Source: Frankia sp. AiPa1
Lineage (GTDB): Bacteria; Actinomycetota; Actinomycetes; Frankiales; Frankiaceae
Direction of reading: 5' to 3'
DNA: 64,000 nt
Assembly: GCF_023243075.1 (NCBI RefSeq)
Contig: NZ_JALKFZ020000142.1
Span: 62,001 to 126,000, forward strand
The translations under genes were made by a program, and so were the position numbers. Every line of letters starts with the position of its first letter. Position 1 is the stretch's first letter. The notes under the pieces are model-generated. The model ran no database searches. It saw nothing but the letters and a program-made list of their open reading frames with translations, and was not told where the DNA came from. Shown here piece by piece: positions 1,220 to 49,641 of the stretch.

Positions 1220-3310
<2,091 letters not shown>

Positions 3311-3391
3311 CCGCCCGGCTCGCCCGCGAGCCCGCCGCGGCTCGTCCGCGAGCACCCTGACGACTGATCCCTCTTGCCCTGGAAGGACCCC

Positions 3392-24326: not shown

Positions 24327-25283
24327 ATGGGCGACGGCAGACAACGTAACGATCTCGGCGCGGCGTTCGCGAATGACGCGCGTCGGATCTGGGAGGTGGC
24401 CGAGCCGATCCACGCGGTCATCTACTTCCATCCAGCGGTGGCCCGGTTCGGCGCGGAGGCCGGCTGCCACGGTTTCTGGATGAGCTACGTCGGGATGCGG
24501 GCCGCCCCGCTCGGCGCGGCCTCGGCAGCGGCGATCACGGCGGCCTTCTACAACTTCTCGCCGCGCCGGATCGCCCGGTCGGTGCCGGACGTGTGGGCCT
24601 ACTCCTCGCCCGCCCGATTGCTCGACGTCCGGCTCGCGGCCATGGACGCTGTGCTAAGGGAGCTCTGGGGTCTGGAGGCGACCGGGGCGGCGGTGCGCCG
24701 GGCGGCGGAGCTGGCCGGCCGAGTGGTCGCCGCCGCGGTGACCGCGGGCCGGCCGCTGGCGGCGGCGAACGCCGTGCTGCCCATCCCCGCCGATCCGCAC
24801 CTGGCGCTGTGGCAGGCGTTGACCGTCCTGCGCGAGCATCGCGGCGACGGGCACATTGCCGCGCTCGTGCGTTCCGAGGTCGGGCCGTGTGAGGCGCTCG
24901 TCCTCGCGTCCGCGACCGGACGAAGTCCCGCCGAACAGTCGCGGATGTCGCGGGGCTGGAGCGAGCGGGAGTGGGCGGGCGCGGTGCGCAGCCTGGCTGC
25001 CCGCGGCTGGCTGCATCCGGACGGGTCGCTGACCTCTCTCGGCGCACAGGCCAGCGCCGAGATCGAGAACGTGACCGACCTGCTCGCCGCCGCACCGTAC
25101 CGCGCGTTGGCCCGCTCGGAATGCGACGAGCTGTACGAGACGCTCTACGGGCTGGCCGACCGGGTGGTGCTCGGCGGCGGGTTCACCTGGCCCAACCCGA
25201 TCGGGCTCAACTGGCCGCCGCCGTCGGCCATCTCGGTCGCCCGGCTGCGTCAGCCGGCGGAGCTGGGCTCCACCGAGGGGTAG
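24327..25283 (+). CDS. SCO6745-family protein (winged-helix-like C-terminus)
   Basis: This 318-residue protein is of a widespread but uncharacterised actinobacterial family. The N-terminus has the family pattern RRIWEVAEPIHAVIYFHPAV, GFWMSYVGMRAAPLGAAS and FYNFSPRRIARSVPDVW. The middle shows PHLALWQALTVLREHRGDGHIAAL. The C-terminal part (GWSEREWAGAVRSLAARGWLHPDGSLTSLGA) looks like a MarR-type winged helix. ATG at 24327 follows GGGAGG. Its 3' end overlaps the convergent VirB4-like gene by 34 bp. The function is unknown. Confidence 0.85.
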   Translation: MGDGRQRNDLGAAFANDARRIWEVAEPIHAVIYFHPAVARFGAEAGCHGFWMSYVGMRAAPLGAASAAAITAAFYNFSPRRIARSVPDVWAYSSPARLLDVRLAAMDAVLRELWGLEATGAAVRRAAELAGRVVAAAVTAGRPLAAANAVLPIPADPHLALWQALTVLREHRGDGHIAALVRSEVGPCEALVLASATGRSPAEQSRMSRGWSEREWAGAVRSLAARGWLHPDGSLTSLGAQASAEIENVTDLLAAAPYRALARSECDELYETLYGLADRVVLGGGFTWPNPIGLNWPPPSAISVARLRQPAELGSTEG

Positions 25284-27352
25284 CCGTAGTCACCGGAGAA
25301 CGGCTCGTCGCCGGCGCCCGGCACGTCGCCGTCCCGATCGACGTCCGCGCCGTCGGCCGGCCGCCGGCCGTCCCCTCGCTGGTGGCCATTGCCGAAGGGG
25401 GCACCGCCGAGCGCACCGGGCGGCACGGCGGCCTCGAGACCCGGCGGGTCGAGCTCCGCCGGGTCCAGGTCGTCCGGCGTCAGGTTGATGTCGTCGACCT
25501 CGCCGTGCATCTTCGACCCGTTCAGCACGACCGGGATCTCCAGGTCGCCGACGACGTGTTCCACGTAGAACGCCCGGGCGCCGATGAGCCAGAGCGCGAA
25601 GCCCGGGTCGAGCCTGGGCAGCAGGTCGGCGGCGACGTCGGTGAGGCCCAGCGCCTGCTGGGTGTCGGCGATCTGGTCGGAGGCCTGCTTGTAGAGGATG
25701 CGGATCGCCGTCTCGGCCAGCAGGCCCTTGGCGATTTCGACCGAGTCGGGCGAGGCGGAGAGCAGGTCGGAGATGCGGTGCGCGACGATCGCGTTGGCGC
25801 AGCCCCACTGCCGGGCAAGCTTCTGCTGCGCGGACAGCCGGCGGACCAGTCCGGCGAAGCGCATCAGGCGCCAGCACTCGTCATAGACCACGTAGCGCTG
25901 CACGCCGTCCTGGCGCATGAGTGCCGCTTCCATCCACGCCTGCGCACAGGTCATGATCAGCGCGATCATCTCGTCGCTGCCCTGGACCCGTTCCAGGTTG
26001 AGCACGGCGATGGGGCGGTCGAAGTCCAGCGGGGACGTCGTCGGGCCGTCGAACAGGCCACCGAGCGCACCATGGGTGAGCCGGCGCAGCGTGAGGGTGG
26101 CATCCCGGGATGCGTCCCGCAGTTCGGTGGCGGTCATCGGCAGGTTGACGCAGTCCTCGTCGGTGGGGTCGGTCATCGCCTCCAGGACGTGGGGGAGCAG
26201 CGGGGTGGCCCAGCGATCCGGGTCAGCTCCGGTGATCTGCCGGGTGACGACATCGAGGGCGAGGTCGACGGCGGTGTGCTCGGCCGGGGTGAGCGGCACG
26301 CCCTTCGCCGTCTCGATCAGCGACGACAGCAGGGCGGAGCGGGCCCGCTTGACCTCCCGGGCCCAGTCCGCGTCGGCGATGCCCCGCGGCCGCGGCGGCG
26401 CGTCCAGCGGGTTGAGCCGGGTCGCCATGCCAGGTCCGATGTAGGTGGGTTCGCAACCGAGCCGGCGGGCCAGCCGGGTGTACTCCCCCTTGGGGTCACA
26501 GGGCACCGCGGCCTGGTAGCCGAACGCCGCACCCCGCGAGATCAGCGTCTTGAGCAGCGCCGACTTGCGGGAGCCGACCGCGCCGAACACGGCGAAGTTC
26601 GGGTTCTCGATGACCTGCTGGCGGTAGAGCTGGAACACGTCGAAGTCGAACGAGTTGCCCGACCAGACGTGCCGGCCGATGTACATGCCGGGAGCGTCGA
26701 GCCCCGAGTCGACGATGAACGGATAGATGCCGGCGATCTGCGCCGTCGTCTCCATGTGCGCGGGAAGTCGCAGCTTGTGGTAATTGCGTCCGGCGAACTG
26801 CCCGATCAGCCTGGATGGCTGCGCGCCGCGGCGCAGCGCTGCCTGGGCCCTGCGCATCGCGGCCTTCTCCGCGGCGGCCGCGGCCTTCTCCTCCCGACGG
26901 CTGCGGCGCGGGGACTGCCGCTGCGCCGACCCGCGCGGGTTCGACCGCGGGCGACGTGGTCCGCCCCCCAGATCCACGAAGCCCTCGGCATCCCGGCCTG
27001 GATCGTGGGACGTGGCCTCGTAGGCCGCTGCCTGGTAGCCGTCCGGGTCGTAGCCGGCCTCGTCGTAGCTCGGCGGGTCGAACTCGTCGAATCCGATCAC
27101 CCCGTCGACGTCGTCATAGCCGCCCGTGCCGTCATAGCCGTTTGGGTTGCCATAGCCGTTTGGGCTGCCGTAGCTATCCGAGCCGTCGTCTCCGTCCGGC
27201 CCGGTCGCCTCGTACGGCACGCCACCAGGATGCGCTGCGCCGTTGTCATCCGCAGTGCCATCGTGGAACGATGTGTCGCCGTCGAACGAGGTGTGGTTCT
27301 CGGGGGACGTGCCGTTGTCGTAGGGCGTGCGATTGTCGCGCGCTGGACTCAT
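25250..27352 (-). CDS. VirB4/TraC-like conjugation ATPase
   Basis: This 700-residue protein is of the VirB4-type ATPases that power type IV secretion at the inner membrane. Residues ~1-170 are an acidic Gly/Tyr/Asp-rich disordered leader with NGYGNPNGYDG repeats, then a basic segment. The ATPase domain follows: IENPNFAVFGAVGSRKSALLKT (P-loop), PCDPKGEYTRLARRLG, and the Walker B VVYDECWRLM with QKLARQWGCANAIVAHRISDL. The P-loop reads GAVGSRKS, so the glycine normally before lysine is arginine. The gene overlaps the SCO6880-family gene by 4 bp (ATGA), indicating coupled translation. It ends inside the convergent SCO6745 gene. Confidence 0.87.
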   Translation of the reverse strand: MSPARDNRTPYDNGTSPENHTSFDGDTSFHDGTADDNGAAHPGGVPYEATGPDGDDGSDSYGSPNGYGNPNGYDGTGGYDDVDGVIGFDEFDPPSYDEAGYDPDGYQAAAYEATSHDPGRDAEGFVDLGGGPRRPRSNPRGSAQRQSPRRSRREEKAAAAAEKAAMRRAQAALRRGAQPSRLIGQFAGRNYHKLRLPAHMETTAQIAGIYPFIVDSGLDAPGMYIGRHVWSGNSFDFDVFQLYRQQVIENPNFAVFGAVGSRKSALLKTLISRGAAFGYQAAVPCDPKGEYTRLARRLGCEPTYIGPGMATRLNPLDAPPRPRGIADADWAREVKRARSALLSSLIETAKGVPLTPAEHTAVDLALDVVTRQITGADPDRWATPLLPHVLEAMTDPTDEDCVNLPMTATELRDASRDATLTLRRLTHGALGGLFDGPTTSPLDFDRPIAVLNLERVQGSDEMIALIMTCAQAWMEAALMRQDGVQRYVVYDECWRLMRFAGLVRRLSAQQKLARQWGCANAIVAHRISDLLSASPDSVEIAKGLLAETAIRILYKQASDQIADTQQALGLTDVAADLLPRLDPGFALWLIGARAFYVEHVVGDLEIPVVLNGSKMHGEVDDINLTPDDLDPAELDPPGLEAAVPPGALGGAPFGNGHQRGDGRRPADGADVDRDGDVPGAGDEPFSGDYGYPSVEPSSAG

Positions 27353-28851
27353 GCCACTCCTACTGCCAGGGGTAGCGCGCCGACGCTGAAGCCTTGGTCC
27401 TGCTCGCCGACGAGACGCACCATCTCCAGGCGGCTACGCGAGGCCAGGGTCTCGGCCTCACCACAGGCGTCGGCGAGCCCGTCCAGGTCATCCGCGGAAA
27501 CCGTCACGAACCCGTGAAAGCGAAACGCGCCGAACCCGGCGATGAGCTCCTGCTCGCGGCGTTCGACCTCGTCGGCCTCGGCCACGTCCCGCTGGGTCGT
27601 GACCTTGCCGACCTTGTCGCGCATCTGCTGCTCACCGAGGTGTGCCATCCGACGCCGGTTCACCGACTTCTCCGCCTTACGTCCGGGGAGCGGCTCCACG
27701 ATCAATGACACGGTACGCCGGCAGGTGGTCTCCATCAGCAGGGGGGCGAGGAACGCCGCCGGCGACGGAACACGGGGCCAGCCGTTAATCCAGTACGTGG
27801 TGTGGAAACCGGAATCGGTGCGGTAATGGTCCCATGCGGTGACGGTGCGCACCGGGCCGGCGACCGCCGGGTCGATGCCGGACGCGAGGCCTTTCAGACC
27901 GCCGGCCAGGTCGGTGCTGGCTCCGCCACGCGCGTCGATCATCTCGATCGAATACGGATCGTACGTGGTGCGGATAACGGCTGCGAGCGCCCGCGGCGGC
28001 AGCCAGCCGACGGTGTTGATGGACGCGCGGGCGAGCGCCGCCTCCATGGTGCGCAGCTCACCGAGCAGGACGGCGCAGGCCGCCTGGTCACCACCGCCGG
28101 CTCGCTGGATGGCCCGGCGGGCGTCCTTGGCCCGTAGCTGAAAGGACAGGTAGGTCTCGTGCCGTTGGGCGACCGGCCCGGCCGCGTCGATGACTTCCTG
28201 GTAGGCACTCGCCGCCCAGGAGTCGTCGTGGTGGCCGCGAACCCGCCAGTGGCGCTGCAACTGGTCGCCGGAGTCGGGCAGGGTGCGTTCCAGCCACTGG
28301 ATCCGCGAGAGCCGCCCGCCGCCGGAGGTGAGACCGGCGAGCAGCTCGCCCCAGGCGTCGACACGGGCCTGCTGGTCACCGGACTCGAGCAGGGCGAACT
28401 GGCTGCCCCGCACCTGCAGAACCGCCGTGTAGGTCTGCCGCTTCGCATCCTTGACGACGGCCACATACCGTCCACCGCCGACCGGTACCGACAGCATCAC
28501 CAGGGCCGACAGCGGCCCGGGCAGGACCGTACGGCTGAGCTGATCTTCTCCTGCGCCGAGCCGGAAAAACGCGCCGCGGAACACCGTCTCGCCCGTCACC
28601 TTCTGCATCGTGAAACCGAACAGGATCGGCACCCACTGGTCGAGGTTACGATCCTCCACCCGGACGAAGGCGACGAACAGCAGGGCCACGGCGAGCAGCA
28701 CCCAGATCGGGACGGTGATCAGTGGCGACCGCAACGCGCCGAGGACGCAGAGCATCACACCGATCATCAGACCGAGCTGCGGCCAGCGCATGCCCAGCAT
28801 GACGCCGCCACGTTCGAGCGGCCCGAACCGGTAACTGCGTTCTGCGACCAT
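27349..28851 (-). CDS. SCO6880-family conjugation-associated membrane protein
   Basis: This 500-residue protein always travels with a VirB4-like ATPase in actinobacterial conjugation-type loci. It resembles a PrgI/VirB3-like membrane part fused to a VirB4 N-terminal-like region. Two adjacent membrane helices lie near residues 25-62 (LGLMIGVMLCVLGALRSPLITVPIWVLLAVALLFVAFVR). The large cytosolic part contains RTLPDSGDQLQRHWRVRGH, AYQEVIDAAGPVAQRHETYL and TTCRRTVSLIVEPLPGRKAEK. No Walker motif is visible. The start ATG has GAGGTAG upstream. It is coupled to the ATPase gene by a 4-bp overlap. Confidence 0.85.
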   Translation of the reverse strand: MVAERSYRFGPLERGGVMLGMRWPQLGLMIGVMLCVLGALRSPLITVPIWVLLAVALLFVAFVRVEDRNLDQWVPILFGFTMQKVTGETVFRGAFFRLGAGEDQLSRTVLPGPLSALVMLSVPVGGGRYVAVVKDAKRQTYTAVLQVRGSQFALLESGDQQARVDAWGELLAGLTSGGGRLSRIQWLERTLPDSGDQLQRHWRVRGHHDDSWAASAYQEVIDAAGPVAQRHETYLSFQLRAKDARRAIQRAGGGDQAACAVLLGELRTMEAALARASINTVGWLPPRALAAVIRTTYDPYSIEMIDARGGASTDLAGGLKGLASGIDPAVAGPVRTVTAWDHYRTDSGFHTTYWINGWPRVPSPAAFLAPLLMETTCRRTVSLIVEPLPGRKAEKSVNRRRMAHLGEQQMRDKVGKVTTQRDVAEADEVERREQELIAGFGAFRFHGFVTVSADDLDGLADACGEAETLASRSRLEMVRLVGEQDQGFSVGALPLAVGVA

Positions 28852-28976
28852 CGACTACCTCACTTGCCGCTCGACCCGACGCCTGCGTACAGCCTGCTCA
28901 CCGCCGGCTGGCTGACGGCCTGTTCCACTCTGTTCCGGAGATCAACTGGCTGCTTGTGGGAGCCCGAGTGGGATGC

Positions 28977-30407
28977 TCACTGACCGCCGGTGCGTGCCGG
29001 CGGTGTGGGTGCCCCCACCCGAGGCGGTCGTGACGCCGGTGTGACCGGCGGGCGGGCGGTGGCGGTCGTACCGCTGCGGGGCGCCGCGACCCGTGCCGTT
29101 GTGCCACCCGAACGTCCGGCGGCGCCGGTGGTCACGGCCGCTCTGGTGGCGCCACCCACCCGGGCTGGCGCACCTGCCCGCGCGGGCTGGCGCGCGCTCG
29201 CGCCGTTGCCGGCGCCGGCGATCGCCGGGGTGCCGCCAGTCGAGGCGACACGTGCCCGTCCGGCTACCGTGCCGCGCACGCTCGCAGTGGCTGCGCCCGT
29301 CCGGGCCGGGGCGCCCAACGGCGTTCCGCCGATGCCACGGCCGCTGCGCCCAGCCGCCGGCCGGGCGAGCCCCGGCTGCATGCCGATGCCGCCGCCGATA
29401 CCGCTACCGATCCCGCCACCGTCGCTACCGCCGAGCACACCCCGGTTGCGCGTTTGCAGCCGGGCGCCGATGCCGCGGAAGGTCTCGCGCGACGTCGAGC
29501 CGAGCAGCGCCCCCGCGCCCTGTCCGAAGGACGCCGCACTGCGTCGGCCGGCCGAACCGACCGCGCGCATGAGGTGGACGTCGGCGAATCCCAGGAGATG
29601 CATGAGTACGAACGGCGCAAACACCGCAGCGATCATCACAACGGTCCCACTGAGGATCGTCAGTGTCTGATCGACCGTGGATCCGGTGGAGTCACTTGCC
29701 ATCCCCGCGCCCAACGCGAAGATGGCGTAGATGACTGGCTTCGCGAAGATTAGCGCCAGGAGCATCTCGGTGGCCCGCTTGATCCAGCCGCTTGTTGACA
29801 TCGTCGGCTGCCCGGCCAGGTAGAGCGGGATGAACACCGCTATCACGATGATGGCGACCTTGCGGATGTAGAGCACGACGAACAGGGCGAACGAGAACAT
29901 CGCCACCAGTAGTGACAACACGAGGTCGAGCGCGAAATTTCCTTGGTCTGGGAGTGCCCGAAGCTGCGCGACGAGATCGGCGCCCAACGGCTTACCGTCC
30001 CCGAAGGCATCCGCCATTCCATCGGACGCGGTAAGGATCATCTGCAGCAGCGCGAGCGCGACGAAGGAACCCATGATCGCCGTACCCGTTGCCGCCCCCG
30101 CCCGAGTGAAAATATGCGGGTCTCCGCGAACCGCACCCATAATGCATGCGCAGAGAAACAGTCCCGTAACTATCAGGACCGCGATCCCGAACGCGATGTT
30201 GTAGTTCTTGACGACGTAATCGGCGCTGAGGTTGACCGACGTCTTCTGTGCCGCGAAGCTGAACACGGAGCTGGAGAGGTCCGCGGCCATCCCGCAGAAC
30301 GCCTTCCCCATAGAATCGAAGTAGGCATCCACACTCCCCGAGATCGCACCCTTGATACTGTTCAGGGGGTGGAAGGGGAGGGCATGAACGTTAGTTTCTT
30401 CGATCAC
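28977..30407 (-). CDS. TrbL/VirB6-like polytopic membrane protein
   Basis: This 476-residue channel-type protein resembles TrbL/VirB6. About seven hydrophobic segments occupy residues ~70-310, including AFGIAVLIVTGLFLCACIMG, GSFVALALLQMIL, LVLSLLVAMFSFALFVVLYI, VAIIVIAVFIPLYLAG and VVMIAAVFAPFVLMHLLG. The last ~150 residues are a Gly/Ala/Arg-rich basic cytosolic tail typical of actinobacterial members. Translation is coupled to the upstream gene through a GTGA overlap (30404-30407). The first ~400 bp are poorer in GC than the rest. Confidence 0.8.
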   Translation of the reverse strand: MIEETNVHALPFHPLNSIKGAISGSVDAYFDSMGKAFCGMAADLSSSVFSFAAQKTSVNLSADYVVKNYNIAFGIAVLIVTGLFLCACIMGAVRGDPHIFTRAGAATGTAIMGSFVALALLQMILTASDGMADAFGDGKPLGADLVAQLRALPDQGNFALDLVLSLLVAMFSFALFVVLYIRKVAIIVIAVFIPLYLAGQPTMSTSGWIKRATEMLLALIFAKPVIYAIFALGAGMASDSTGSTVDQTLTILSGTVVMIAAVFAPFVLMHLLGFADVHLMRAVGSAGRRSAASFGQGAGALLGSTSRETFRGIGARLQTRNRGVLGGSDGGGIGSGIGGGIGMQPGLARPAAGRSGRGIGGTPLGAPARTGAATASVRGTVAGRARVASTGGTPAIAGAGNGASARQPARAGAPARVGGATRAAVTTGAAGRSGGTTARVAAPRSGTTATARPPVTPASRPPRVGAPTPPARTGGQ

Positions 30408-31198
30408 TGTCCAGCTCCGACCAGGATGAAATCGCGGAAACTTTCGGCTGTCCGTTCGGTTATGGCTGGGGTCCAGGGGCCGTCTTTAGCATCCGTAAGC
30501 TTCCAATCCCCTGAATTCCAAACAACTTGACAGTCGTCGGTTCCCCAGCCTTCCCGCGGGGCTAGTTCTGGGTTAGAGCTGTCGTATACGCCGAAGCCAA
30601 CAATTCCCCAGAGTCTAATGTTGGCAGTATTTTCGTTATATGAGGTTACGCTATAGCCGATAACTCTTCCGATCCAGTTCACCGAAGGCGACTGGAGGGA
30701 ATTGACTTTGAGATATTCTGCATTTTTTTTATCAACTTCAAGAATTGTATTTGCAATTCTATCGGCGTCGCTTGGTAGTGAGATCGATCGAAACATGTCA
30801 TGGATGCGCGAAGGAACGCGATTGGCGGGTACTCCCCAGGCGCGATCGTAATTAGCGCATGCGCTAATAGCCCCTGCCTGGTCCCGAGGGTACCCGACGG
30901 GAATGCCAAACTCGTTAGTGCGAGTAGGAACTCCGGCGATTTGGCTTCCGCCGTCAGATGTCTGTGCCGAGCTGCTCGCCGATGGCTGTGGGTTGGGGAC
31001 AAGCGTCGCGGTCGGTGTGGTCACCGCTGGAGAGGCTGTCGATACCGCCGACGGAGCTACAGAGGCGGTGTCGGGGGACTTGGGGTTGTTGGGGACGGCA
31101 TAACGTCCGACCACCACGCCGACGAGCACGCCGGCCGTGCCGGTGGCTACGATGATGATGATCAGGCGTCTGGCCACGGTTTCGATCACGCCTGGCAA
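30404..31198 (-). CDS. Membrane-anchored extracytoplasmic protein of the T4SS-like locus
   Basis: I do not recognise a named family for this 264-residue protein. It has one N-terminal membrane helix (RRLIIIIVATGTAGVLVGVVVGRYAV) and a Ser/Thr/Pro linker. A globular domain of ~165 residues follows (AGAISACANYDRAWGVPANRV, VNWIGRVIGYSVTSYNENTANIRLWGIVGFGVY). The topology and position suit a VirB8-like or accessory channel subunit. TTG at 31198 is used because GGGAGGGG lies upstream. The second half of the gene is strikingly AT-rich for this genome (around 30600-30790), with rare codons, suggesting relaxed selection or later acquisition. Confidence 0.7.
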   Translation of the reverse strand: MPGVIETVARRLIIIIVATGTAGVLVGVVVGRYAVPNNPKSPDTASVAPSAVSTASPAVTTPTATLVPNPQPSASSSAQTSDGGSQIAGVPTRTNEFGIPVGYPRDQAGAISACANYDRAWGVPANRVPSRIHDMFRSISLPSDADRIANTILEVDKKNAEYLKVNSLQSPSVNWIGRVIGYSVTSYNENTANIRLWGIVGFGVYDSSNPELAPREGWGTDDCQVVWNSGDWKLTDAKDGPWTPAITERTAESFRDFILVGAGQ

Positions 31199-31267
31199 CG
31201 CCTGCTCCCCTCCCGCGACGGCACGACCATCATCGCAACGTCCGCCCGCGGGTACCCGGGGAACCGC

Positions 31268-31684
31268 TCAGAAGGGGATTGACGCTGGGGCATGGACCAC
31301 GCCGGGGACAGCGGCGACGGAGAGTTCGACGGCCGGCGGGCGCAGGTCGCTCAGGTTGGGTTCCGGTGCGGTGGCCGTTGCGCCGGTGACCAGGAAGAAG
31401 TTGATGAAGGCGGCGGCGGCGCCGACGAGGAATGCCAGGCCGAAGCCGGCGATGACCCCGCTCTTTCCGACCGTGGACGCGCGTTCGAGACCCATCCGTT
31501 CACCGAGCGCCCAGGCGATACCGCCGAGCAGCACGGCGGCGACGGCAGCGATCACCGCATAGGCAGCCAGGCCGTTGACCAGGTCTTTCAGGGCGTTGAT
31601 GCCGGGCGCTTTCGAGTCGTCCGGCTTCACCTGCACGGCGGCGAGGAAGACGGTCGCCTTGGTGGAGGCGGCGTCGTGGATCAT
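31268..31684 (-). CDS. Small two-helix membrane protein (pilin-like, VirB2/DUF6112-type)
   Basis: This 138-residue protein has two membrane segments: ALKDLVNGLAAYAVIAAVAAVLLGGIAWAL and SGVIAGFGLAFLVGAAAAFINFFLV. A short polar hinge (GERMGLERASTVGK) separates them, which is the VirB2/TrbC topology. DUF6112-like proteins occupy this place in actinobacterial conjugation loci. There is no clear cleavable signal. The start overlaps the end of the MinD-like gene by 4 bp (ATGA). It probably forms the extracellular or envelope-spanning element of the apparatus, by analogy. Confidence 0.75.
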   Translation of the reverse strand: MIHDAASTKATVFLAAVQVKPDDSKAPGINALKDLVNGLAAYAVIAAVAAVLLGGIAWALGERMGLERASTVGKSGVIAGFGLAFLVGAAAAFINFFLVTGATATAPEPNLSDLRPPAVELSVAAVPGVVHAPASIPF

Positions 31685-34281
31685 CGCGGTTCCTTTCTCG
31701 CGGGCAGGTCTCCGCCCGGACGATCCGGTCCGGCGATCCGCGAGGGCGCCGTGGGTGACCGTAGGTCGCCGAATGATACGCCCATCGGTGCCTTGTGATC
31801 CGCAGTAGTGGCCGGTAGGCCGCTGGTCGGGTCGGCCTGCGCACGCACTGTGATCGCTTCGGTGGTGGCGAGTGAGGAAGTGCCTGACGGCCCGGATGCC
31901 ACTTTCGTGGTCTCTACCTCGGCTTTCGCAAGGATGAACAGGTTTTCGATGGTCGCTGCCGCAAGGCGCAGGTAGGCGCGGCGCGTCCGCCGCCGCAGCC
32001 GCGGGATCCGAATCGGTGTGTGCCGGCTCGGATCCAACCGCGGGTCGTAGGGAATGCGCACCAAGGCATCCACCTGACGGCCGAGCCGAGCGGCTCCGGC
32101 CCTGGTACGCGGAGACGGCCGACCCCGGCGCGGGGCGACGATGGCCGCCACGATCGGCGTCGTCGCCGTCCCCGGCGGGCGGTTGCCGGCCGACTCCCGA
32201 AAGGCCCGCAGCCGCATCACCGTCGCCTCCAGATCGGCAGCCGTGGCAAGGGTGACCAGCACCACGAGGTCGGCTGCCGCAACGGCGGCATCGGTGAGCG
32301 GCGCGTCGGTCGGCGCGTCCACGAGGACCAGCGGATAGGAATGCGCGAGCAGGCCGAGGGCCGAACGCAGCCCACTCGCCGTCACGGTCGGTTCGTCGGC
32401 GCCGTGGATGACAGGCAGGTCGGCCGAGGCCGCACCCGCCGCCTGTTCCCGGGCGAGATGACCGGCGTCGCGCCGCATCGGCAGCACGTCGAGGTCCCGG
32501 GCACTTCCTGACCGCTGCCCACCGATCATCAGCCGCAGTTCGCTGGACGACCCCTCGTCAGCGTGATGGCGGATGACATCGGTGACCGTCGTCGTCCCCG
32601 TGGAGCCGACCCGGCTGGTCAACGGGTCGCCCCGCGGCTCGTTCTCGTCCGCGGGCGACGCCGGATCGGCGGGGAGGGCACTCTCGTCGGCGTCGGCCTC
32701 ACCTGGCCACAGATCGACCGCGAGGACGGGCTGGGCCCGCATACCGGTGAGGGTCAGGCCCATCACCCCGGCGAGCGTCGTCGTCCCCGAGTACGGAAAC
32801 AGCGATGTCACGGCGATCCGCCACGAGCCGGGCAGCGGGATACGGGACCGGTCCCGAACCGACAGCCGGACGGGGACTTCGTCACGAGGCTCGAGACCGT
32901 GCCCGCCGCGCTGTGGGCGGGAACGTTCGGCGTCCGGCAGACGCTGCGCCCCGGGATGCCGCTGTGGTGCCGCCGGCGCCGCCCCGCCCTTCGCCGGTGC
33001 GTCCGCTGGTGGCGCTGCCTTCGCCGTGGCGGCCGTTGTCTGCGTGTTCTTCGCCAGGGCTGTCTCTGCCGGGACTGCTTTCGCCGAGGCGAGCGTGGAC
33101 AGTGGCCCCGCGGCCGGCTGTGAGCCCCCTGGCGGGTCCGCCGCTCCTTCCCGCGTCGGAGCGCCGAAGGTAGGAGCCACAACCTGGGGTTCGAGGCCCT
33201 GCGGCCCGACCGCCGGTGGGTGTGCGGCACGCGCGGCGGCCTCGGCGTCGGAAGCTCCGGCGACCCGGATGCCGCCGGGGATCCGGATGCCGCCGGGGAC
33301 CTCGGTACCTCCGGAGCTCTCGCGACCAGGCGTGAGCGGGGCGGCGTCGAGGCTCGCCGGGTCTCCTGTGCTCGTGGCGGTGCCGGTCGAGGTGGCACCG
33401 CCGGGGGGCGGTGCGGGATTGTCGCGGCCCTGCGCGGGCGCGCCGCTCTCCTCGGGGGCGGGGAAAGGACCGGTGATGGCGCTGCTCACAGGGCCGGGCA
33501 CCACGATCGGGCCGGTCGCGGGGGCGGCTGCCGCCCCGGACGGCCCGCTGGGCTCGGGCCGGGCAACGAGGGGATCAGCCGTGTGGTCAGACGGCGCGGG
33601 TTCGAGCGGCTGGCCTGGCCCGGTCGGCTGGAGTCCGGCGGGCATGGCACCTGTGGGCGAGACGCCCACCGACGGTGTCCCATCCCGTGGCGGGACGGCC
33701 GGTACCGCGGGAGCCGTGCGCGACGGGGCTGAGGCTCGCGGCGGTCGGCTCCGTCGCGGGCCCGTGCCGCCGCCTGTCTCTGACCCTCGCCCATCGGTTG
33801 CGGAGCGTGACTGCTGGTCGGGGCTTCGAGGTGCCGAGGGACCATCCGCGTCCGGCTGGGTTCGCGGGGCGATCGCGGCCGGACGACCCGCGCGCCTCGC
33901 CCGGCCACCCCGGGACCGCCCGCCGCCCGTGCTCCCGGACTCGTCGGCCCGGCCGGACGTGACGTCCGCATCGCTTGCACGGTCCGCACCCGGACCATCC
34001 GCGGATGTCGCATCATCGAGGTGGAACGCCTCGCTCTGCCACGCTTCGTCGGCTGGTTGAGCCAGGTCGGATCCGGTGCGCCGCCGATGACGTCTGCGCC
34101 CGGAGCGTGCGTGGGGAGGTGACTCGGCGTCGTCGCCTGGGGTGGCGTCCGACCCGTAGGGGTCATCCAGCTCGGACATCCGCTGGGTGCGGGAGGCCGT
34201 CGACGGAAGGCGGGCTCCTATGAGGGAGACAGGCCGCGCATCGCCTTCCTCACCGTGCGGTGCCTGTGGCACATCGCTCAC
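31681..34281 (-). CDS. MinD/ParA-like protein with long disordered N-terminus
   Basis: This 866-residue protein is first in the T4SS-like minus-strand operon. Residues ~1-480 are Pro/Ser/Gly/Ala-rich and look unstructured. The C-terminal ~350 residues form a SIMIBI-type domain: WRIAVTSLFPYSGTTTLAGVMGLTLTG, VLAVDLWPGEAD, PLVLVDAPTDAPLTDAAVAAADLVVLVTLATAADLEA and VRIPYDPRLD. The P-loop reads YSGTTT and lacks the lysine of GKT. The membrane-targeting C-terminal helix is not obvious. GTG at 34281 has GGAGGG upstream. A positioning or regulatory role for the apparatus is inferred. Confidence 0.75.
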   Translation of the reverse strand: MSDVPQAPHGEEGDARPVSLIGARLPSTASRTQRMSELDDPYGSDATPGDDAESPPHARSGRRRHRRRTGSDLAQPADEAWQSEAFHLDDATSADGPGADRASDADVTSGRADESGSTGGGRSRGGRARRAGRPAAIAPRTQPDADGPSAPRSPDQQSRSATDGRGSETGGGTGPRRSRPPRASAPSRTAPAVPAVPPRDGTPSVGVSPTGAMPAGLQPTGPGQPLEPAPSDHTADPLVARPEPSGPSGAAAAPATGPIVVPGPVSSAITGPFPAPEESGAPAQGRDNPAPPPGGATSTGTATSTGDPASLDAAPLTPGRESSGGTEVPGGIRIPGGIRVAGASDAEAAARAAHPPAVGPQGLEPQVVAPTFGAPTREGAADPPGGSQPAAGPLSTLASAKAVPAETALAKNTQTTAATAKAAPPADAPAKGGAAPAAPQRHPGAQRLPDAERSRPQRGGHGLEPRDEVPVRLSVRDRSRIPLPGSWRIAVTSLFPYSGTTTLAGVMGLTLTGMRAQPVLAVDLWPGEADADESALPADPASPADENEPRGDPLTSRVGSTGTTTVTDVIRHHADEGSSSELRLMIGGQRSGSARDLDVLPMRRDAGHLAREQAAGAASADLPVIHGADEPTVTASGLRSALGLLAHSYPLVLVDAPTDAPLTDAAVAAADLVVLVTLATAADLEATVMRLRAFRESAGNRPPGTATTPIVAAIVAPRRGRPSPRTRAGAARLGRQVDALVRIPYDPRLDPSRHTPIRIPRLRRRTRRAYLRLAAATIENLFILAKAEVETTKVASGPSGTSSLATTEAITVRAQADPTSGLPATTADHKAPMGVSFGDLRSPTAPSRIAGPDRPGGDLPARKEPR

Positions 34282-34323
34282 GCGCCGTCGCCCTCCCGGC
34301 TCTCTGATGGTTAGCTAGTGCCA

Positions 34324-34346
34324 GTTACCGTTACTTACTGTTACTT
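34324..34346. promoter_or_regulatory. Phased GTTAC repeats upstream of the MinD-like gene
   Basis: GTTAC occurs at 34324, 34330 and 34340. GTTACTT is exactly repeated at 34330 and 34340, 10 bp apart, so the two sites face the same side of the helix. They lie 43-65 bp ahead of the minus-strand start. Confidence 0.45.
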
Positions 34347-34585
34347 GCGTTGTGCTGGGGTCGGATCGATGTAACACGAGCTGTTCGAGTATGACAAGCT
34401 CAGGTTGAGGCTATCCAGGACACGTGGGTCGGTGTAACTTCCGGAACCGGACATCGTCGGGCCGGACGGCTCGGCCGAGTATCGGGTTGATCGCCAGAAG
34501 GTCGGCCATCCCAGATGCTCGGATAATTGGACAGTTCGGGCAATCCGGTAGTTCGGCCATCGAGCGGGTCGGCATACCTCGGTTC

Positions 34586-34621
34586 GGTCACCGTGGTAGC
34601 CGTGGTCACCGTGGTAGCCGT
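34586..34621 (+). repeat. 18-bp tandem duplication
   Basis: Two exact copies of ggtcaccgtggtagccgt. The first half resembles the ggtcaccgt motif of the 18.7 kb array. Confidence 0.75.
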
Positions 34622-34832
34622 GGTGCGGGCTCCCCGGGCGACGCCCGTGCGGGACGCACGAACGAGACGAATCCGGTAGCGAGACGAACACGTAGTACGA
34701 CGAACGTCCAGAACGAACGACGAGCGTGAGCCAGGCGTGTCGAGCCGGGGGCGTGCGGAGCCGGGCATGCGAAGCCGGGCGCGCACAGCCACGTAGGCCA
34801 GGCACGGGGCGAGCAGAGTGAAGGGAGCGTCG

Positions 34833-35375
34833 GTGGCGCAGGACGGCTACTCGATGGCGGCGCCTCGAGGATCCGGCCGCTTCGGGCTGCCCGCCGGCGC
34901 GGCCGCGCCGCTGCGTGGCGCGCCCGCCGGCATGCCGCCGCTGCGTGCGGCGCCGGGCGGTTCCGGTCGGCCGCGGGCGAACTCGGCCCGGCCAACCGGT
35001 ACCCCGTCGGCGGCGGCCCCGGCGCCCGGTTCGGCGCCGCCCCCCACGCCGCTGGCACCCGGTGTGGCCGGTGCCACCGCCAGTACCAACGGCGGCGCGC
35101 GAGTGACGACCGGCGGCGGCGCCATGGCCGTGACCGGCCCCGCGCCGGCCATGACGACGGCGTCGGCGAGGTCGGTGGCACCCATGGCGCCGCCGATCCG
35201 GCCGTCCGACGATGACGACGTCCTGACCGTTGACGAACTGGTCGCCTGGCTCCGGCTGTCCGAGAGCACCGTGCTCAAGCTGCTGTCGGAGCGGGCGATC
35301 CCGGCCCGCAAGGTCGGTCACCAGTGGCGGGTGCGGCGTGGTCGCGTCCGGGACTGGCTGGACGGACGCGAATGA
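34833..35375 (+). CDS. Excisionase-type helix-turn-helix protein
   Basis: This 180-residue protein ends in a MerR/excisionase-like winged helix: DDVLTVDELVAWLRLSESTVLKLLSERAIPARKVGHQWRVRRGRVRDWLDG. The first ~120 residues are Ala/Pro/Gly-rich linker. Such domains bind DNA in phage excisionases and in regulators of mobile elements. GTG at 34833 has aagggag upstream. It is the first gene on the plus-strand side and faces away from the T4SS-like operon, so it is a candidate regulator of both arms. No integrase accompanies it here. Confidence 0.82.
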   Translation: MAQDGYSMAAPRGSGRFGLPAGAAAPLRGAPAGMPPLRAAPGGSGRPRANSARPTGTPSAAAPAPGSAPPPTPLAPGVAGATASTNGGARVTTGGGAMAVTGPAPAMTTASARSVAPMAPPIRPSDDDDVLTVDELVAWLRLSESTVLKLLSERAIPARKVGHQWRVRRGRVRDWLDGRE

Positions 35376-35454
35376 CCACGCTCGACTCGCCCGCACCCCG
35401 CGTGCTGGCACCGCGCGTGGTGACGCCGTGTATGACCGCAACGCACGTGGGATC

Positions 35455-35491
35455 GGCCTACCGCCCGCCGGTGTGCGGCGGGCGGTAGGCC
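35455..35491 (+). terminator. Perfect 16-bp hairpin
   Basis: GGCCTACCGCCCGCCG and its exact complement flank a five-base loop (gtgtg). It lies 80 bp after the HTH gene stop and 22 bp before the lipoprotein start. It may be a terminator of the HTH gene or a structured leader of the next gene. Confidence 0.65.
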
Positions 35492-35512
35492 GGCGACAAC
35501 GGACGGTTCGAC

Positions 35513-36232
35513 GTGCCGATGACCTCCCGGTCCGCCCGATCCGCGTCCCCTCGTGACGCGGATCGCCGCGGATCTCACCTGGCCGGGCTGGCCATGCTGG
35601 CGGTGCTGGTGGTGCTGCCCGTCGGGCTGTCGGGATGCGGATCGTTCGGCCAGCACGACACCCCGGCGCCGCGTCCGGCCACGACCACCGGTCCGCCGCC
35701 GGGAGCAAGCCAGGCGCCGGGCCCGCCGTTGGCCACGGCCACCGCGTCCGTCACGACGCCCGCCTCGGGCGGAACCGTCGACCGGACCGATCCGGCGGCG
35801 GTGGCCGCCGACTGCTTCACCCGCTGGCAGTCGTTCGACGCGCGTGGCGACGCTGGTCCGTCCGTGGGGGTGGACCGGGCCCGGGGCTGCCTCACCGTGG
35901 ACTTCGCCGCGACCCTCGGGGCCGGCTCCACCGGCACGCAGGCGGCCGACGGCGGGGGCGCGGACGGCCAGGCCTGGCAGGACATGCGCGCCGCCGGAGT
36001 CCACTCGCAGGTCAGCGTGCTCGCGACCACCCCGCTCGGCGGCGTCGACACGACAGCGACCGGCCGGGTCGTGCTGCAGCTGAACGTCCGCCGCACGACC
36101 ATCACCGGCAGCAAGCCGCCGGTCGTCAGCGTCTCCACTCCTGCTCTCACCCTGCTACGCCAGCCGGATGGCACCTGGCTTATCGCCGGGGCAGATCTCG
36201 CGAGCGTCGCCGGCGACGCGCCGGGACGGTGA
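35513..36232 (+). CDS. Lipoprotein (T4SS-locus accessory)
   Basis: This 239-residue exported protein has a basic start, a hydrophobic stretch (LAGLAMLAVLVVLPVG) and the lipobox LSGC. A Pro/Thr/Ala linker and a ~140-residue domain follow (AADCFTRWQSFD, VQLNVRRTTITGSKPP-like end section, LLRQPDGTWLIAGADL). It resembles VirB8/TcpC-like or NTF2-like extracytoplasmic domains in layout only; the family is not certain. GTG at 35513 and ATG at 35519 are both possible starts. The stop is 7 bp before the next gene, so the two are co-transcribed. Confidence 0.75.
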   Translation: MPMTSRSARSASPRDADRRGSHLAGLAMLAVLVVLPVGLSGCGSFGQHDTPAPRPATTTGPPPGASQAPGPPLATATASVTTPASGGTVDRTDPAAVAADCFTRWQSFDARGDAGPSVGVDRARGCLTVDFAATLGAGSTGTQAADGGGADGQAWQDMRAAGVHSQVSVLATTPLGGVDTTATGRVVLQLNVRRTTITGSKPPVVSVSTPALTLLRQPDGTWLIAGADLASVAGDAPGR

Positions 36233-36239
36233 GCGGCTG

Positions 36240-37232
36240 ATGGCCCGCGGTTTCCCGCCGAAACGCAACGGCCTGATGGTCTGGTTGGGCGTGGCCGCCG
36301 CCGTCACTGTCGGCGGGATCATCCTGTTGGTTTCCGTGCTGATCCTCTCGCTTGCCGGGCCGTTCGTCGGCAACCATGGCAGCGACAGCGCGATCAAGAA
36401 CTCCAAGGGCATTCCCAAGGAGTACGTTCAGATGATCACGGATGCGGCGAACGCCGCTGGCTGTGCCGAGGTGACCCCGGCGCTGCTCGCCGCGCAGCTG
36501 CAGCAGGAGTCCGGGTTCAACCCGAAGGCTGCCTCACCCGTCGGTGCCATGGGTATCGCCCAGTTCATGCCTGGCACCTGGGCCACGCACGGCCAGGGTG
36601 ACGTCTGGAATCCGGTCGACGCTATCCCCGCCGCGGCCCGGTATGACTGTGAGGTCGCGGTGAGCGTCGCCACGGTACCCGGTGACGGCCAGGAGAAAAT
36701 GCTCGCGGCCTACAACGCCGGCGCCGGCGCCGTGCTGGCCTACGCCGGTATTCCGCCCTACATCGAAACGCAGAACTATGTTCGGACAATCCTCGCCCAG
36801 GCACAGGTGTACGGCGATTCCCTCGAGGACGGGGCCATCATTGCGACCGGCTCGGTCGAACCGGTACTCGCCTTCATGGAGTCCCAGGTCGGCAAGCCGT
36901 ACGTGTGGGGCGCGACCGGCCCCGACACCTGGGACTGCTCCTCCCTCGTCCAGGCTGCCTACCGGACCATCGGCATCAGTCTGCCGCGGGTCACGACCGA
37001 CCAGCTGGCCTACGGGCCCCAGGTCGCCGGGGTCGATCCGCAGCCCGGCGACCTTCTGTTCACCCCCGGCACGGACGGCACCGACGACGCCCCCGGCCAT
37101 GTCGGGATGTACATCGGTGACGGACGGGTCATTGCCGCGAAGGGTGCCCGGTGGGGGGTCGTCGAATCCGACATCTCCTCATGGACGACGACCGTCGCGG
37201 TCACCCGCCCGCTTGCCAAGGGTCTTTCCTGA
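36240..37232 (+). CDS. Lytic transglycosylase - NlpC/P60 cell-wall hydrolase
   Basis: This 330-residue peptidoglycan hydrolase is of the kind that opens the wall for conjugation machines. An N-terminal membrane anchor (MVWLGVAAAVTVGGIILLVSVLILSL) is followed by an SLT domain with the catalytic glutamate in LQQESGFNPKA, then GAMGIAQFMPGTW and AAYNAGAGAV. The NlpC/P60 domain has the nucleophile in DTWDCSSLVQAAY, the histidine in GHVGMYIGDGRVI and the entry YVWGATGP. Both domains look intact. It begins 7 bp after the lipoprotein stop. It matches the Tn916 Orf14-type partner of T4SS. Confidence 0.92.
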   Translation: MARGFPPKRNGLMVWLGVAAAVTVGGIILLVSVLILSLAGPFVGNHGSDSAIKNSKGIPKEYVQMITDAANAAGCAEVTPALLAAQLQQESGFNPKAASPVGAMGIAQFMPGTWATHGQGDVWNPVDAIPAAARYDCEVAVSVATVPGDGQEKMLAAYNAGAGAVLAYAGIPPYIETQNYVRTILAQAQVYGDSLEDGAIIATGSVEPVLAFMESQVGKPYVWGATGPDTWDCSSLVQAAYRTIGISLPRVTTDQLAYGPQVAGVDPQPGDLLFTPGTDGTDDAPGHVGMYIGDGRVIAAKGARWGVVESDISSWTTTVAVTRPLAKGLS

Positions 37233-37259
37233 TGGTCGGAAGTCTTTCCTGCTCACCCG

Positions 37260-37415
37260 TCAGGCGAGATTCTCAACGAAATCCGACAGGCCGTTCCCGA
37301 CGTTGCCCGCCAGGGCGACGCCGTCCTGGACCAGGGCCGAGGCGCTGGCGGGGGCGGTAACCATAAAGAAGAGGATGAAAATCCCAATTCCCCACGGCCA
37401 GATCAATTTGCTCAT
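37260..37415 (-). CDS. 51-residue secreted/membrane peptide
   Basis: This very small gene reads MSKLIWPWGIGIFILFFMV then TAPASASALVQDGVALAGNV and GNGLSDFVENLA. It has one hydrophobic segment with an ASA-type cleavage site, followed by a short amphipathic tail. I recall near-identical layouts in many actinomycetes, usually unnamed. ATG at 37415 has GAGGT upstream; the longer frame to 37481 is less likely. It is convergent with the hydrolase gene, 27 bp away. The function is unknown. Confidence 0.7.
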   Translation of the reverse strand: MSKLIWPWGIGIFILFFMVTAPASASALVQDGVALAGNVGNGLSDFVENLA

Positions 37416-46156: not shown

Positions 46157-49100
46157 TCAGCTGGCAGGCAGGGCGGGGCGCTGGTCGAGGGTGTCGAACA
46201 GGCGGCGGCTCAGGTTCGCCGCAGCCACGTTGCCCCGGCCCAGGTAGCGGCCGATCCCGGCCTCCATGCTTTCGGCGGCATCATCCTTGCGCTTGGCCCG
46301 GTACAGCACCTCGGCCCGGCACAGCAGGGCGTGTGCCTGGCCGTCGACGTCGTCGGTGCGCGCGGACAGGTCGACAGCGGTGTCGGCGAAGCGCAGCGCC
46401 TCGGCGTCCCGGCCGCGCAGCGACAGCAGCCGGGCATGCACCCCGCACCAGCCGGCCTGCGCGGGCAGCTGGTCAGCGGCGGCGGCATCCCGGCAGCGGG
46501 TGACGTACTTGCCGGCGTCGTCGACCTTGCCGAGCCGGACCAGCACGTCGGCAAGAGCCGCGGCGCGATTGGCGAGCATGGCCCGCTCGCCCATCCGGGA
46601 CAGTGCCCGGCAGCTGCGCCGCAGCTCACGCTCGGCAACAGCGAGATCGTTGGAGAGCAGCGCGACCCGCGCGACGACGAATCCGCCGTGATGCGGGTCG
46701 ACGCGCGGCCCGCGCAGGTCGTGGACGATCTCCTCGGCAGCCTTGAGATGGACCCGGGCATCCTCGAGGTCGCCGGACATCGCGGCGAGCACGGCGAGTT
46801 GGGCGAGCAGCGCCCGGCGCAGGGCCCGGTCGTCGCCGGCGGCGTCGAGGGCCTCGCTGGCCCGGTTGCGACTCGCGGCGACGGGGCGTGGGCCGAGGCT
46901 GGTCAGCAGGGCGAGTTCGCGGCGCAGAGACTGTGCGGCCCGCGGCACTCCGGACTCTTCGGCGTGGCGCACCGCGTTCTCCATCGCCCGCTCGGCGGCG
47001 TCGAACTGGCCGGCGGCGAAGTAGGCGCTGGACTGGCTGCGGCAGGCCAGCGCCGCGCCCACATCGTCACCGGAACGGACGAACATCGCCAGCGACGAGG
47101 CCGACTCGGCGACGGTGGTGGCGACCAGGCCCTCCGGATCCGTGGCGAACAGCACCCGCAGATGGGCGAGCCGGGCGTGGGCGCGCAGCCCGTCCTCGCC
47201 GGCGCGACGCGCACGCTCGGTGACCTGGCGCAGGATGCGCTCGGCGTCGGAGTGCCGGGTGAAGGAGAACAGCGCCCAGCCGAGGTCGATCTCGGCCCGC
47301 AGCCGCAGCGGGTCGGTCTCGGGCAGCAGGGTGATCGCCCGTTTGAGCAGCTGGGCAGCGCCGGCCTCGTCGCCCTGACGGACCCGGTCGGCGGCCTCGA
47401 TCAGACAGGTCGCCGCCGCCCGGCCGAGCTCGATGGTCTCCGTTGCGCGCAGGCCGATCTCCATCCGAAACCGGTAGGCCTGCTCCAGGTGGTAGCCGAC
47501 CAACTCGTCGTGCTCACCCGGGCCACCGACCAGGCGGGCCTGCAGCCATTCGGCGAACTGCTGGTGCAGCTCGGCCCGGCGGCGTTTCGAGGTGGACTCG
47601 TAGGCGCAGTCGCGCAGCAGCACGTGCAGGAACCGGAAGGCCTCCACCCCGGGCAGGTCGGAGCGGTCGGGATGGACGAGCTCCTTGCGGACCAGGCTCA
47701 GGCAGTGCGCGCCGACCATCGACCGTTCGGCCGGATCGGACAGCTCGATGACGGCGTCGAGGTAGAACCGCTCGCCGGCCACCGCGGCCCGTTCGAGTAC
47801 CCGGCGTTCAGCCGGGTCGAGCCGGTCCAGGCGGGCGGCGAGCAGCGAGGAGATCGTTGGTGGCACGGTGACACCCCGCAGGCTGCCGGTGGCGATCCAG
47901 CGGCTACCCTCCCGGCGCAGCAGCCCGTCGTCGACAAGGGCGGCGACCATCTGTTCCACGAACAACGGGTTGCCCGCCGCCGAGGTGGTGATCCGGTTGA
48001 CCAGAGCCGGGTCGAGGTCATCCGAGCCCATCAGGGAGCGGATCAGGCGCTGGCAGCGGGCCTCGGTCAGCGGCGCGAGCAGCATCGAGGTGGCGTTGAA
48101 CTTGCCGCCGCCCCAGTCGCGGCGGTCCTCCAGCAGCTCCTGGCGGGTCAGGCACAGCAGCATGATCGGGGCGTCCCGGGACCAGTCGGCGATGTTCTCG
48201 ATCAGGTCGAGCAGCGTCGGCTCGGCCCAGTGCACGTCGTCGAACCACAACACCAGCGGATGGCGCACGGCCAGGGCCCGGAAGAACGAACGCACCGCCC
48301 AGAAGCTCTCCTGCGGCCCGGCCTCGGCGCCGCCGAGGCCGACCAGCGGCGCGAGGGCGTCGACGATCTCGGCGGCCTGGTCGACGCCGTCGAGCAGCTC
48401 ACGCAGCCGGCGTCGGCCGTCCGGCGCGCTCTCGTCGGCGGACAGGCCGGTGGCCTGGCGCACCATCTCCATCAGCGGCCAGTAGGCGATGCCCTCGCCG
48501 TAGGACAGACAGCGCCCGGTGAGCACGGTGGCGCGGGGCGCCAGGGACGCGCAGAACTCCCCGACCATCCGGGACTTGCCGATGCCGGCCGAGCCGAGCA
48601 CGGTGAACAGATGGCAGGTGCGTTCCTCGACGACCGCCTCGAAGGCGTCCTGCAGCCGTCGGCGTTCCCGGTTGCGCCCGATGACCGGGGCGGTGAAACC
48701 GAGTGCCGCCGCGCGGGCCCCGGGGCCGGCTGTCGGGTCGACCAGGCCGGTCAGCCGATGCACCCGCAGTGGCTCGCGCTTGCCCTGCACGACCAGCGGG
48801 TCCAGGGGGCTGACCGTCACACTGTGCCGGATGTACCGGTAGGTGGAGTTGCCGATCAGGATCTCGTCGGGCGGGGCGGCGTCCTCCAGCCGGGAGGCGA
48901 CGTTCACCGCGTCTCCGGTGACGCCGCCGCCGGCGACGGTCACCTCGCCGGTGTTGATTCCAATCCGCACCCGCAGCCGCAGGCCCCAGCGTTGCTGCAG
49001 ATCCGCGTTGAGGGCCTCCATCGCGGCTCGGATGTCGAGCGCCGAGCGGACGGCGCGCAACGCGTCATCCTCGTGCAGGACGGGGATGCCGAACACGGCG

Positions 49101-49366: not shown

Positions 49367-49641
49367 GTGCGGGATGGTAGGCCGATCCCGGCCCGGTGCG
49401 GTGGGGGATGCGTCCACCCGACGCGATCCGGGTGACCCGTCCCACACCGATGTCACAATTCGGTCGGATGGTCGGTGCCGGTCAGACGGCCGGTCGCGCT
49501 CGGCCGGCCGGTCGCGCTCGGTCGACCGTGGTGTAGGCGCGGGCAGTGTCGGGCGGCGATCCATGGCAGGCCGCGTGCGTGGCGTGATGGCAGGGTTCGG
49601 TCGGCCGTGGGTACGCCCGCCGGTCGAACGGGATCCCTCGA

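Follow-up and report, generated by a model that had tools for sequence, protein, structure and literature searches.

What does a type IV secretion system (T4SS) do when neither a relaxase nor a coupling protein lies beside it? The question is raised by a divergent block of nine T4SS-like genes at positions 25250 to 37232 of a 64,000-nucleotide stretch of DNA from Frankia sp. AiPa1 (contig NZ_JALKFZ020000142.1; hereafter the window), part of a 6.98 Mb draft genome that is 88.5% complete. We consider it likely that the locus derives from an actinobacterial conjugation machine of the MOBF type, is inherited vertically, no longer conjugates, and serves hyphal growth, septation or sporulation. Its fixed and non-conjugative nature is well supported; the role in development or in the hyphal envelope is suggested by analogy with the cmd genes of Streptomyces, discussed below. 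We regard it as a fixed derivative without a relaxase gene (MOBless) and not as an integrative and conjugative element (ICE), because no MOBF relaxase or TraG-type coupling protein is linked to it, VirD4 is missing, and the locus is near-universal in the family and lies near gyrB wherever this can be measured. A MOBless chromosomal T4SS resembling cmd is a known kind of system; the coupling-free variant present across nearly the whole of the Frankiaceae is new.

The six genes of the minus arm encode, in the order of transcription, a MinD-like protein, a DUF6112 pilin-like protein, a VirB8-like protein, a VirB6/TrbL-like protein, an SCO6880-family protein and a VirB4-like ATPase; the plus arm encodes an HTH_17 protein, a lipoprotein and a wall hydrolase with SLT and NlpC/P60 domains. 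A preliminary description of this DNA had listed the same six minus-strand and three plus-strand genes, and sequence and profile scans confirm all nine. Most of the names that it gave also hold. The VirB4-like protein is the ATPase half only. The 4-bp overlaps that it reported occur at three of the five minus-arm junctions, the remaining two being gaps of 69 and 125 bp, and the arms, described there as facing each other, in fact diverge from a common intergenic region. Profile scans covered 36 of the 38 called proteins of the window, the other two being gyrB and gyrA, which lie at its start (1325-5896; named from sequence). The genes scanned on either side of the block are ordinary cell genes. 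The block is more than a chance assembly, because its synteny is kept across the Frankiaceae.

As the preliminary description had it, none of the 36 scanned proteins matched a relaxase, a coupling protein or an integrase (attachment, or att, sites were not searched). A wider search for linkage gave the same picture. Across 35 Frankiaceae genomes, none of the draft contigs that bear the locus has a match to the MOBF relaxase profile PF08751 or to the TraG-type coupling protein profile PF12696. Among G030 and the genomes assembled as one contig, the smallest distance from the locus to such a match is 257 kb, in G028. Two of the single-contig genomes (G001 and G028) contain no match to PF02534 or PF12696 anywhere. 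The PF02534 search covered the window's own genome and seven other Frankiaceae genomes; the window's own genome has no PF02534 match, and it has one PF12696 match and one short TrwC match, each off the locus contig. Relaxases outside the PF08751 family were covered by the Pfam scans of the 36 window proteins. A locus of a second type in G018 (contig 47) has both a relaxase and a TraG-D_C match within 10 kb of its SCO6880 gene, so the method finds these genes where they are present. The locus thus shows neither the linkage to relaxase, VirD4/TraG and integrase nor the variable presence of an ICE, and the earlier proposal that it is not a conjugative element agrees with the lack of a linked MOBF relaxase or TraG-type coupling protein, with its position near gyrB in every genome where this could be measured, and with its complete absence from only two small genomes, both of other genera.

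Relatives outside the Frankiaceae differ at this very point. Of 17 named loci outside the family, 14 were examined for VirD4 (all except L133, L135 and L140), and in every one VirB4 is immediately followed by a VirD4/TraG gene, with both PF02534 and PF12696 over cut-off. Seven of these 14 also carry a TrwC relaxase within 60 kb on the same contig (contig identity being inferred from coordinates). The Streptomyces plasmid NZ_CP108542.1, which PLSDB types as non-mobilizable, has mobF 10 kb from its locus, a divergent SLT/C40 hydrolase and a gene row ending in SCO6880 and VirB4. Among the actinobacterial plasmid and ICE systems (e.g. NZ_CP108542.1; L126-L142), the plasmid resembles the Frankia locus in the divergent hydrolase and in the row ending in SCO6880 and VirB4, and three relatives (L129, L137 and L138) have a MinD-like protein directly upstream of the pilin; the 14 relatives differ in their VirD4, seven of them in their TrwC and the plasmid in its mobF, where the Frankia locus has neither coupling protein nor relaxase. 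Judged from this comparison, the VirD4 slot after VirB4 is lost in the Frankiaceae.

The SCO6880 family was matched in 32 of the 35 Frankiaceae genomes. In 31 of them the copy is that of the present locus, scoring 353-376 bits or, in G022 and G024, appearing as two pieces split by N; the 32nd, G009, has only a copy of the second type. Absence of the locus from G006 and G009 was considered and ruled out, as other parts of it lie on small contigs in both, although the SCO6880 and VirB4 genes of the locus were detected in neither. The total with the locus, whole or partial, is therefore 33 of 35. All nine genes are present in 13 of the 16 fixed loci that were read, and a contig or region end truncates the remaining three; among 23 named loci, a set overlapping the 16, the complete ones again number 13 and the truncated ones 10. 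Within the genus, three genes of the left flank are common to six of seven loci and the seventh shares two, while the left flanks differ in loci of other genera. A gyrB protein query gave a strong match in all 15 Frankiaceae genomes searched, and the distance from locus to gyrB is 26-90 kb in the window and in the 10 of these genomes that have both on one contig (in G028 counted across the start of the circle); in the other five the two are on separate contigs. The locus is thus fixed in the family, near gyrB wherever this can be measured, and is not a feature that sister strains lack.

In G003, which we take to be strain CcI3, the locus lies at 42 kb. Passages of a 2008 paper (PMC2266912) describe a single VirB4-like gene whose conservation extends over three Frankia genomes, within a stretch lying 35-96 kb away from the origin of CcI3; they note VirB4 alone and doubt a role in secretion. 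This gene is very probably the VirB4 of the present locus. Those passages do not mention the nine-gene machine, its relatives or what it has lost.

The SCO6880 protein is exactly 500 residues long in all 16 fixed loci read. Its identity to the window copy is 96-98% within the genus, where the named relatives are Frankia species, and 86-91% in Frankiaceae outside it, compared with 93-96% and 88-89% respectively for GyrB (two further GyrB rows, in pieces, give 88 and 94%), so that the two proteins are conserved to about the same degree. The ATPase core of VirB4 is close to invariant in the alignment. The VirB8-like protein, the MinD-like protein and the lipoprotein vary far more than this pair.

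Within the conserved core, the VirB4 P-loop is altered. In the window it reads GAVGSRKS, with arginine before the lysine, where relatives carry glycine or alanine; the Walker B motif VVYDE is retained. The form G[AS]VGSRKS was found in 17 of 17 sequences, the window included, and in 23 of 23 named Frankiaceae loci, two sets that overlap. In 39 other aligned rows (L136, gapped at this position, is not among them) the residue is glycine in 34 and alanine in five, of which four are from Micromonosporaceae and one from Amycolatopsis. We note that in these five (L130, L132, L134, L137 and L139) the alanine replaces the last glycine, giving GSAKS, or RSAKS in L139, so the position varies in other lineages too. 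A locus from a Frankiaceae metagenome-assembled genome (L125), whose SCO6880 is 41% identical, is of another type and has the P-loop GTGKS.

These observations bear on whether the locus is what remains of an ICE, decaying or immobilised, and either without present function or mobilised in trans. Such a remnant would account for the absent relaxase and coupling genes, for the altered P-loops of both the VirB4-like and MinD-like proteins, and for an HTH protein of the excisionase family. We nevertheless regard it as very improbable, given an undecayed SCO6880 of constant length and 86-98% identity, the near-invariant VirB4 core, and the nature of the apparent breaks in two genomes. These breaks, in SCO6880 of the uncultured Frankia loci L123 and L124, were examined as possible decay and proved to be assembly gaps, that is, runs of N (about 10829-11166 in L123 and 10730-11027 in L124).

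The nearest CHARACTERISED relative of the locus is the cmdABCDEF cluster of Streptomyces coelicolor (SCO4126-4131) together with tgdA (SCO4132), genes tied to aerial growth and septation. Passages of PMC2782261 report that cmd null mutants have defects in sporulation, branching and chromosome segregation, and that plasmid transfer is not significantly altered in them; that the cmdA null has no apparent sporulation defect; that pigment is overproduced by nulls of cmdB, cmdD, cmdE and the whole cluster and not by those of cmdA, cmdC or cmdF; and that SCO6878, SCO6880 and SCO6881 resemble cmdB, cmdC and cmdD. According to passages of PMC6585502, mutants of tgdA, a putative transglycosylase gene, and of cmdBCDEF were found in a transposon screen to overproduce actinorhodin alike. 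On the basis of gene order and content we take L099 and L100 to be Streptomyces cmd loci. L100 has the order pilin-like, VirB8-like, VirB6-like, SCO6880-type, VirB4-like and TraG-D_C protein, with a divergent SLT/NlpC gene; its CmdA-like protein matches TraG-D_C at 7.5e-6, and the Frankia wall hydrolase has a match of 266 bits in this locus. The Frankia locus and cmd/tgdA are alike in being chromosomal, in having no relaxase gene, in the order VirB8-VirB6-SCO6880-VirB4, and in the divergent SLT/NlpC hydrolase resembling tgdA, although this order and hydrolase are also common to a mobile relative. They differ in that the Frankia locus lacks CmdA, contains additional genes for the MinD-like protein, the HTH protein and the lipoprotein, carries GSRKS in its P-loop, and does not come out beside cmd in the trees. 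The slot lost in the Frankiaceae is that of cmdA, whose deletion had no apparent effect on sporulation, and a coupling-free machine is therefore plausible in both.

How the two are related by descent is a separate matter, and either answer is compatible with the reading of the locus as a fixed, non-conjugative derivative. One ancient recruitment would make the locus a direct ortholog of cmd; Streptomyces would then have retained the VirD4-like CmdA, and Frankia would have lost it. The common gene order and divergent SLT/NlpC gene speak for this, as do the scores of the VirB8-like protein: 64 and 55 bits against cmd, compared with no more than 24 against other loci outside the Frankiaceae or 35 against second-type loci of the Frankiaceae. 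However, mobile relatives have the identical gene order, and SCO6880, VirB4 and TrbL score higher against mobile-type loci than against cmd. In both single-gene trees, of 47 rows and rooted at the midpoint, the Frankia locus groups with the mobile-type loci and cmd sits apart on a branch 2.4-2.9 changes per column long. The concatenated tree (44 rows; L125, L140 and L098 left out) likewise separates cmd on a very long branch, and such lengths make the separation unsure. When Frankia and cmd were held together, the approximately unbiased (AU) test did not reject the arrangement for single genes (p = 0.226 for SCO6880 and 0.095 for VirB4), and gave p = 0.0115 for the concatenated alignment. On balance, direct orthology seems doubtful to us. 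Since the trees disfavour it, recruitment may have happened twice, and we lean towards two recruitments over one, with the caution that long branches urge. It is tentatively proposed that filamentous actinobacteria recruited the same plasmid-type T4SS twice independently, once as cmd and once in the lineage ancestral to the Frankia genera, and that relaxase and coupling function were given up both times to leave a machine of the hyphal envelope or septum. The Frankia version would then have become as conserved as gyrase and, with a lineage-specific arginine in the P-loop of its VirB4, would run on an altered or regulatory motor.

The coordinates of the features are collected in Table 1. The parts of a Gram-positive-type T4SS found here are a VirB4-family ATPase, a VirB8-type NTF2-like membrane protein and a VirB1-like wall hydrolase, with both SLT and NlpC/P60 over cut-off. 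For the ATPase, hhalign of three VirB4 sequences against TrwK gave a probability of 98.8 and E 1.3e-16 over profile columns 385-729 of 796.

Table 1. Features of the divergent T4SS-like locus, in window positions.
Feature	Position	Strand	Basis
VirB4-like ATPase (CmdB-like), ATPase half only	25250..27352	-	NF045971 1.4e-19 (under the model's own cut-off); alignment; motif surveys; hhalign
SCO6880-family protein (CmdC-like), 500 aa, EccE-related	27349..28851	-	NF042935 2.9e-107; PF11203; TIGR03923
VirB6/TrbL-type membrane protein (SCO6881-like, CmdD-like)	28977..30407	-	NF047967 (SCO6881 family) 5.4e-11 (below cut-off); conserved position
VirB8-like protein (CmdE-like)	30404..31198	-	fold comparison
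Pilin-like small membrane protein, DUF6112	31268..31684	-	PF19607 7.7e-10
MinD/ParA-like protein, long Pro-rich N-terminal part	31681..34281	-	alignment; ParA 0.0043 (weak)
Shared intergenic region	34282..34817		alignment of 6 same-genus regions
HTH_17 (excisionase-family) DNA-binding protein	34818..35375	+	PF12728 1.7e-9; TIGR01764 8e-9
Putative lipoprotein, lipobox LSGC by eye	35513..36232	+	sequence; conserved position
Wall hydrolase, SLT transglycosylase + NlpC/P60 (VirB1-like; TgdA-like)	36168..37232	+	PF01464 1.5e-15; PF00877 6.4e-21

The protein that the preliminary description called simply an anchored protein is VirB8-like by its predicted fold. The model consists of an N-terminal helix (membrane by eye, at low confidence), a low-confidence linker and an NTF2-like domain, and a fold search with VIA-align ranked T4SS proteins first, whereas plain Foldseek, against this reading, had ARC6, PARC6 and the CaMKII hub in its top rows; a sequence search of solved structures with this protein gave nothing useful. 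The MinD-like protein owes its name to motifs. Its Walker A motif reads PYSGTTT, or GGSGRTT in L039 and L040, so that the lysine is lost in all 11 aligned rows (L034 was left out, its reading holding a stop), and the motif LVLVDAP is retained. Three relatives have R or V at the lysine position of their MinD-like proteins too, and the loss is therefore older. An almost invariant N-terminal peptide, MSDVPQxPYGEEGDARPVSLIGAR, precedes the long Pro-rich part, and is perhaps a docking peptide. A search for MinD-like proteins in three Streptomyces-type genomes gave only weak best matches; the neighbourhood of one resembles an ESX, or type VII secretion system (T7SS), locus, as named by eye, from which we draw no conclusion.

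Taken together, the losses and the parts kept suggest how the machine might work. Relaxase and VirD4 would have been dropped, and the VirB8-, VirB6- and pilin-like proteins, SCO6880, VirB4, the VirB1-like hydrolase, the MinD-like protein, the lipoprotein and a regulator kept. The SLT/NlpC hydrolase would open the wall, and the VirB8-, VirB6- and pilin-like proteins would build a single-membrane, wall-spanning structure, which the SCO6880/VirB4 pair could drive or gate from the cytoplasm. The MinD-like protein, having no catalytic lysine, may position or regulate the machine, and the HTH protein may control both arms. With no coupling protein, a DNA-relaxase substrate would not be recruited, leaving an envelope device that could act in hyphal growth, septation or sporulation, as cmd/tgdA do.

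The preliminary description had suggested protein secretion or DNA uptake; the analysis turned up no substrate, no effector and no gene for uptake, and cmd/tgdA point instead to growth and development. Frankia is mostly symbiotic, and a dedicated T4SS could export effectors to the plant host or to competing microbes without a coupling protein; the high variability of the VirB8-like protein, the MinD-like protein and the lipoprotein would suit this, as would the description, in passages of PMC3158045, of MOBless T4SSs as often being protein exporters. We think it unlikely, as the nine genes are constant in the 13 complete loci, where no gene for cargo or immunity interrupts them, the components on the motor side are roughly as conserved as gyrase, unlike those of arms-race systems, and VirD4, the normal recruiter of substrates, is missing. 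The locus also occurs in Pseudofrankia asymbiotica (L114), whose lifestyle we read from its name. A DNA-uptake (competence) device hardly seems probable at all: T4SS-based uptake in Helicobacter is mentioned in the same passages, but window protein scans matched no uptake gene in the block or its flanks, there is no coupling part, and nothing else points there.

Several points weigh against a fixed, non-conjugative machine with a role in development. The genome-wide relaxase search covered the MOBF family alone, and several of the draft contigs that bear the locus span only 9-30 kb, which makes those drafts a poor test of linkage; there may be an unknown relaxase, or mobilisation in trans. No part of the locus, and no SCO6880 or VirB4 match, was found in G013 and G015, genomes of 3.0 and 3.2 Mb from other genera, the latter 63% complete. 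Identity of the VirB8-like protein is 38-64%, a fast divergence that would fit a secretion device as well. The VirB4 arginine could mean a weakened motor. Finally, the phenotype is carried over from cmd, which may be a distant cousin, because the trees do not place the Frankia locus with it; nor do the cmd genes behave as one strict unit, because the cmdC and cmdF nulls do not overproduce pigment.

Compared with the MOBless class as presented in PMC3158045, the Frankia locus is alike in being a chromosomal T4SS without a relaxase, and unlike in also lacking VirD4, in being vertically inherited and in belonging to a filamentous actinobacterial family. No comparable system was found in passages of a 2025 T4SS review (PMC12857230). 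The usual view of MOBless T4SSs is that they export effectors; in Frankia, as with cmd, machinery for conjugation has apparently become lasting equipment of the mycelial cell. PMC6769113 describes a transformation system that now exists for Frankia alni ACN14a, which, with the tgdA/cmd phenotypes, makes the role of a T4SS without a DNA substrate directly testable.

The SCO6880 protein also matches models of the type VII secretion protein EccE, PF11203 at 1.8e-5 (over cut-off) and TIGR03923 at 1.2e-11 (below cut-off), so that T4SS and ESX components may be connected. It is perhaps a VirB3/PrgI-like hairpin joined to the N-terminal part of VirB4; its match to PrgI is 0.42 only. The idea that it supplies the missing N-terminal VirB4 half was not borne out by hhalign (probability 0.1, and 1 with TrwK at E 0.054). 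Its AlphaFold model, built from an alignment of 10 close rows, has a mean confidence (pLDDT) of 34.5, with only an N-terminal two-helix stretch near 60-77, and a sequence search of solved structures with it found nothing useful.

In the plus arm, the alignment suggests that the HTH_17 protein starts a few codons further in, and the true start of the wall hydrolase probably lies inside its open reading frame; the lipoprotein has no Pfam match. The intergenic core at about 34310-34450 is strongly conserved in the six aligned regions and contains the direct repeats GTTACTTAC / GTTACTTGC, putative regulator sites possibly bound by the HTH_17 protein.

The window's own genome has a second, plasmid-type SCO6880/VirB4 pair on a 4.9-kb contig (G000:C63:592-2088; L001 and L046), resembling those of G007 and G018. 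Elsewhere in the window, 39602-42385 encodes a Ser/Thr protein kinase with C-terminal NHL repeats, and 46157-49774 a protein with an adenylate/guanylate cyclase domain, a zinc ribbon, AAA_16 and TPR.

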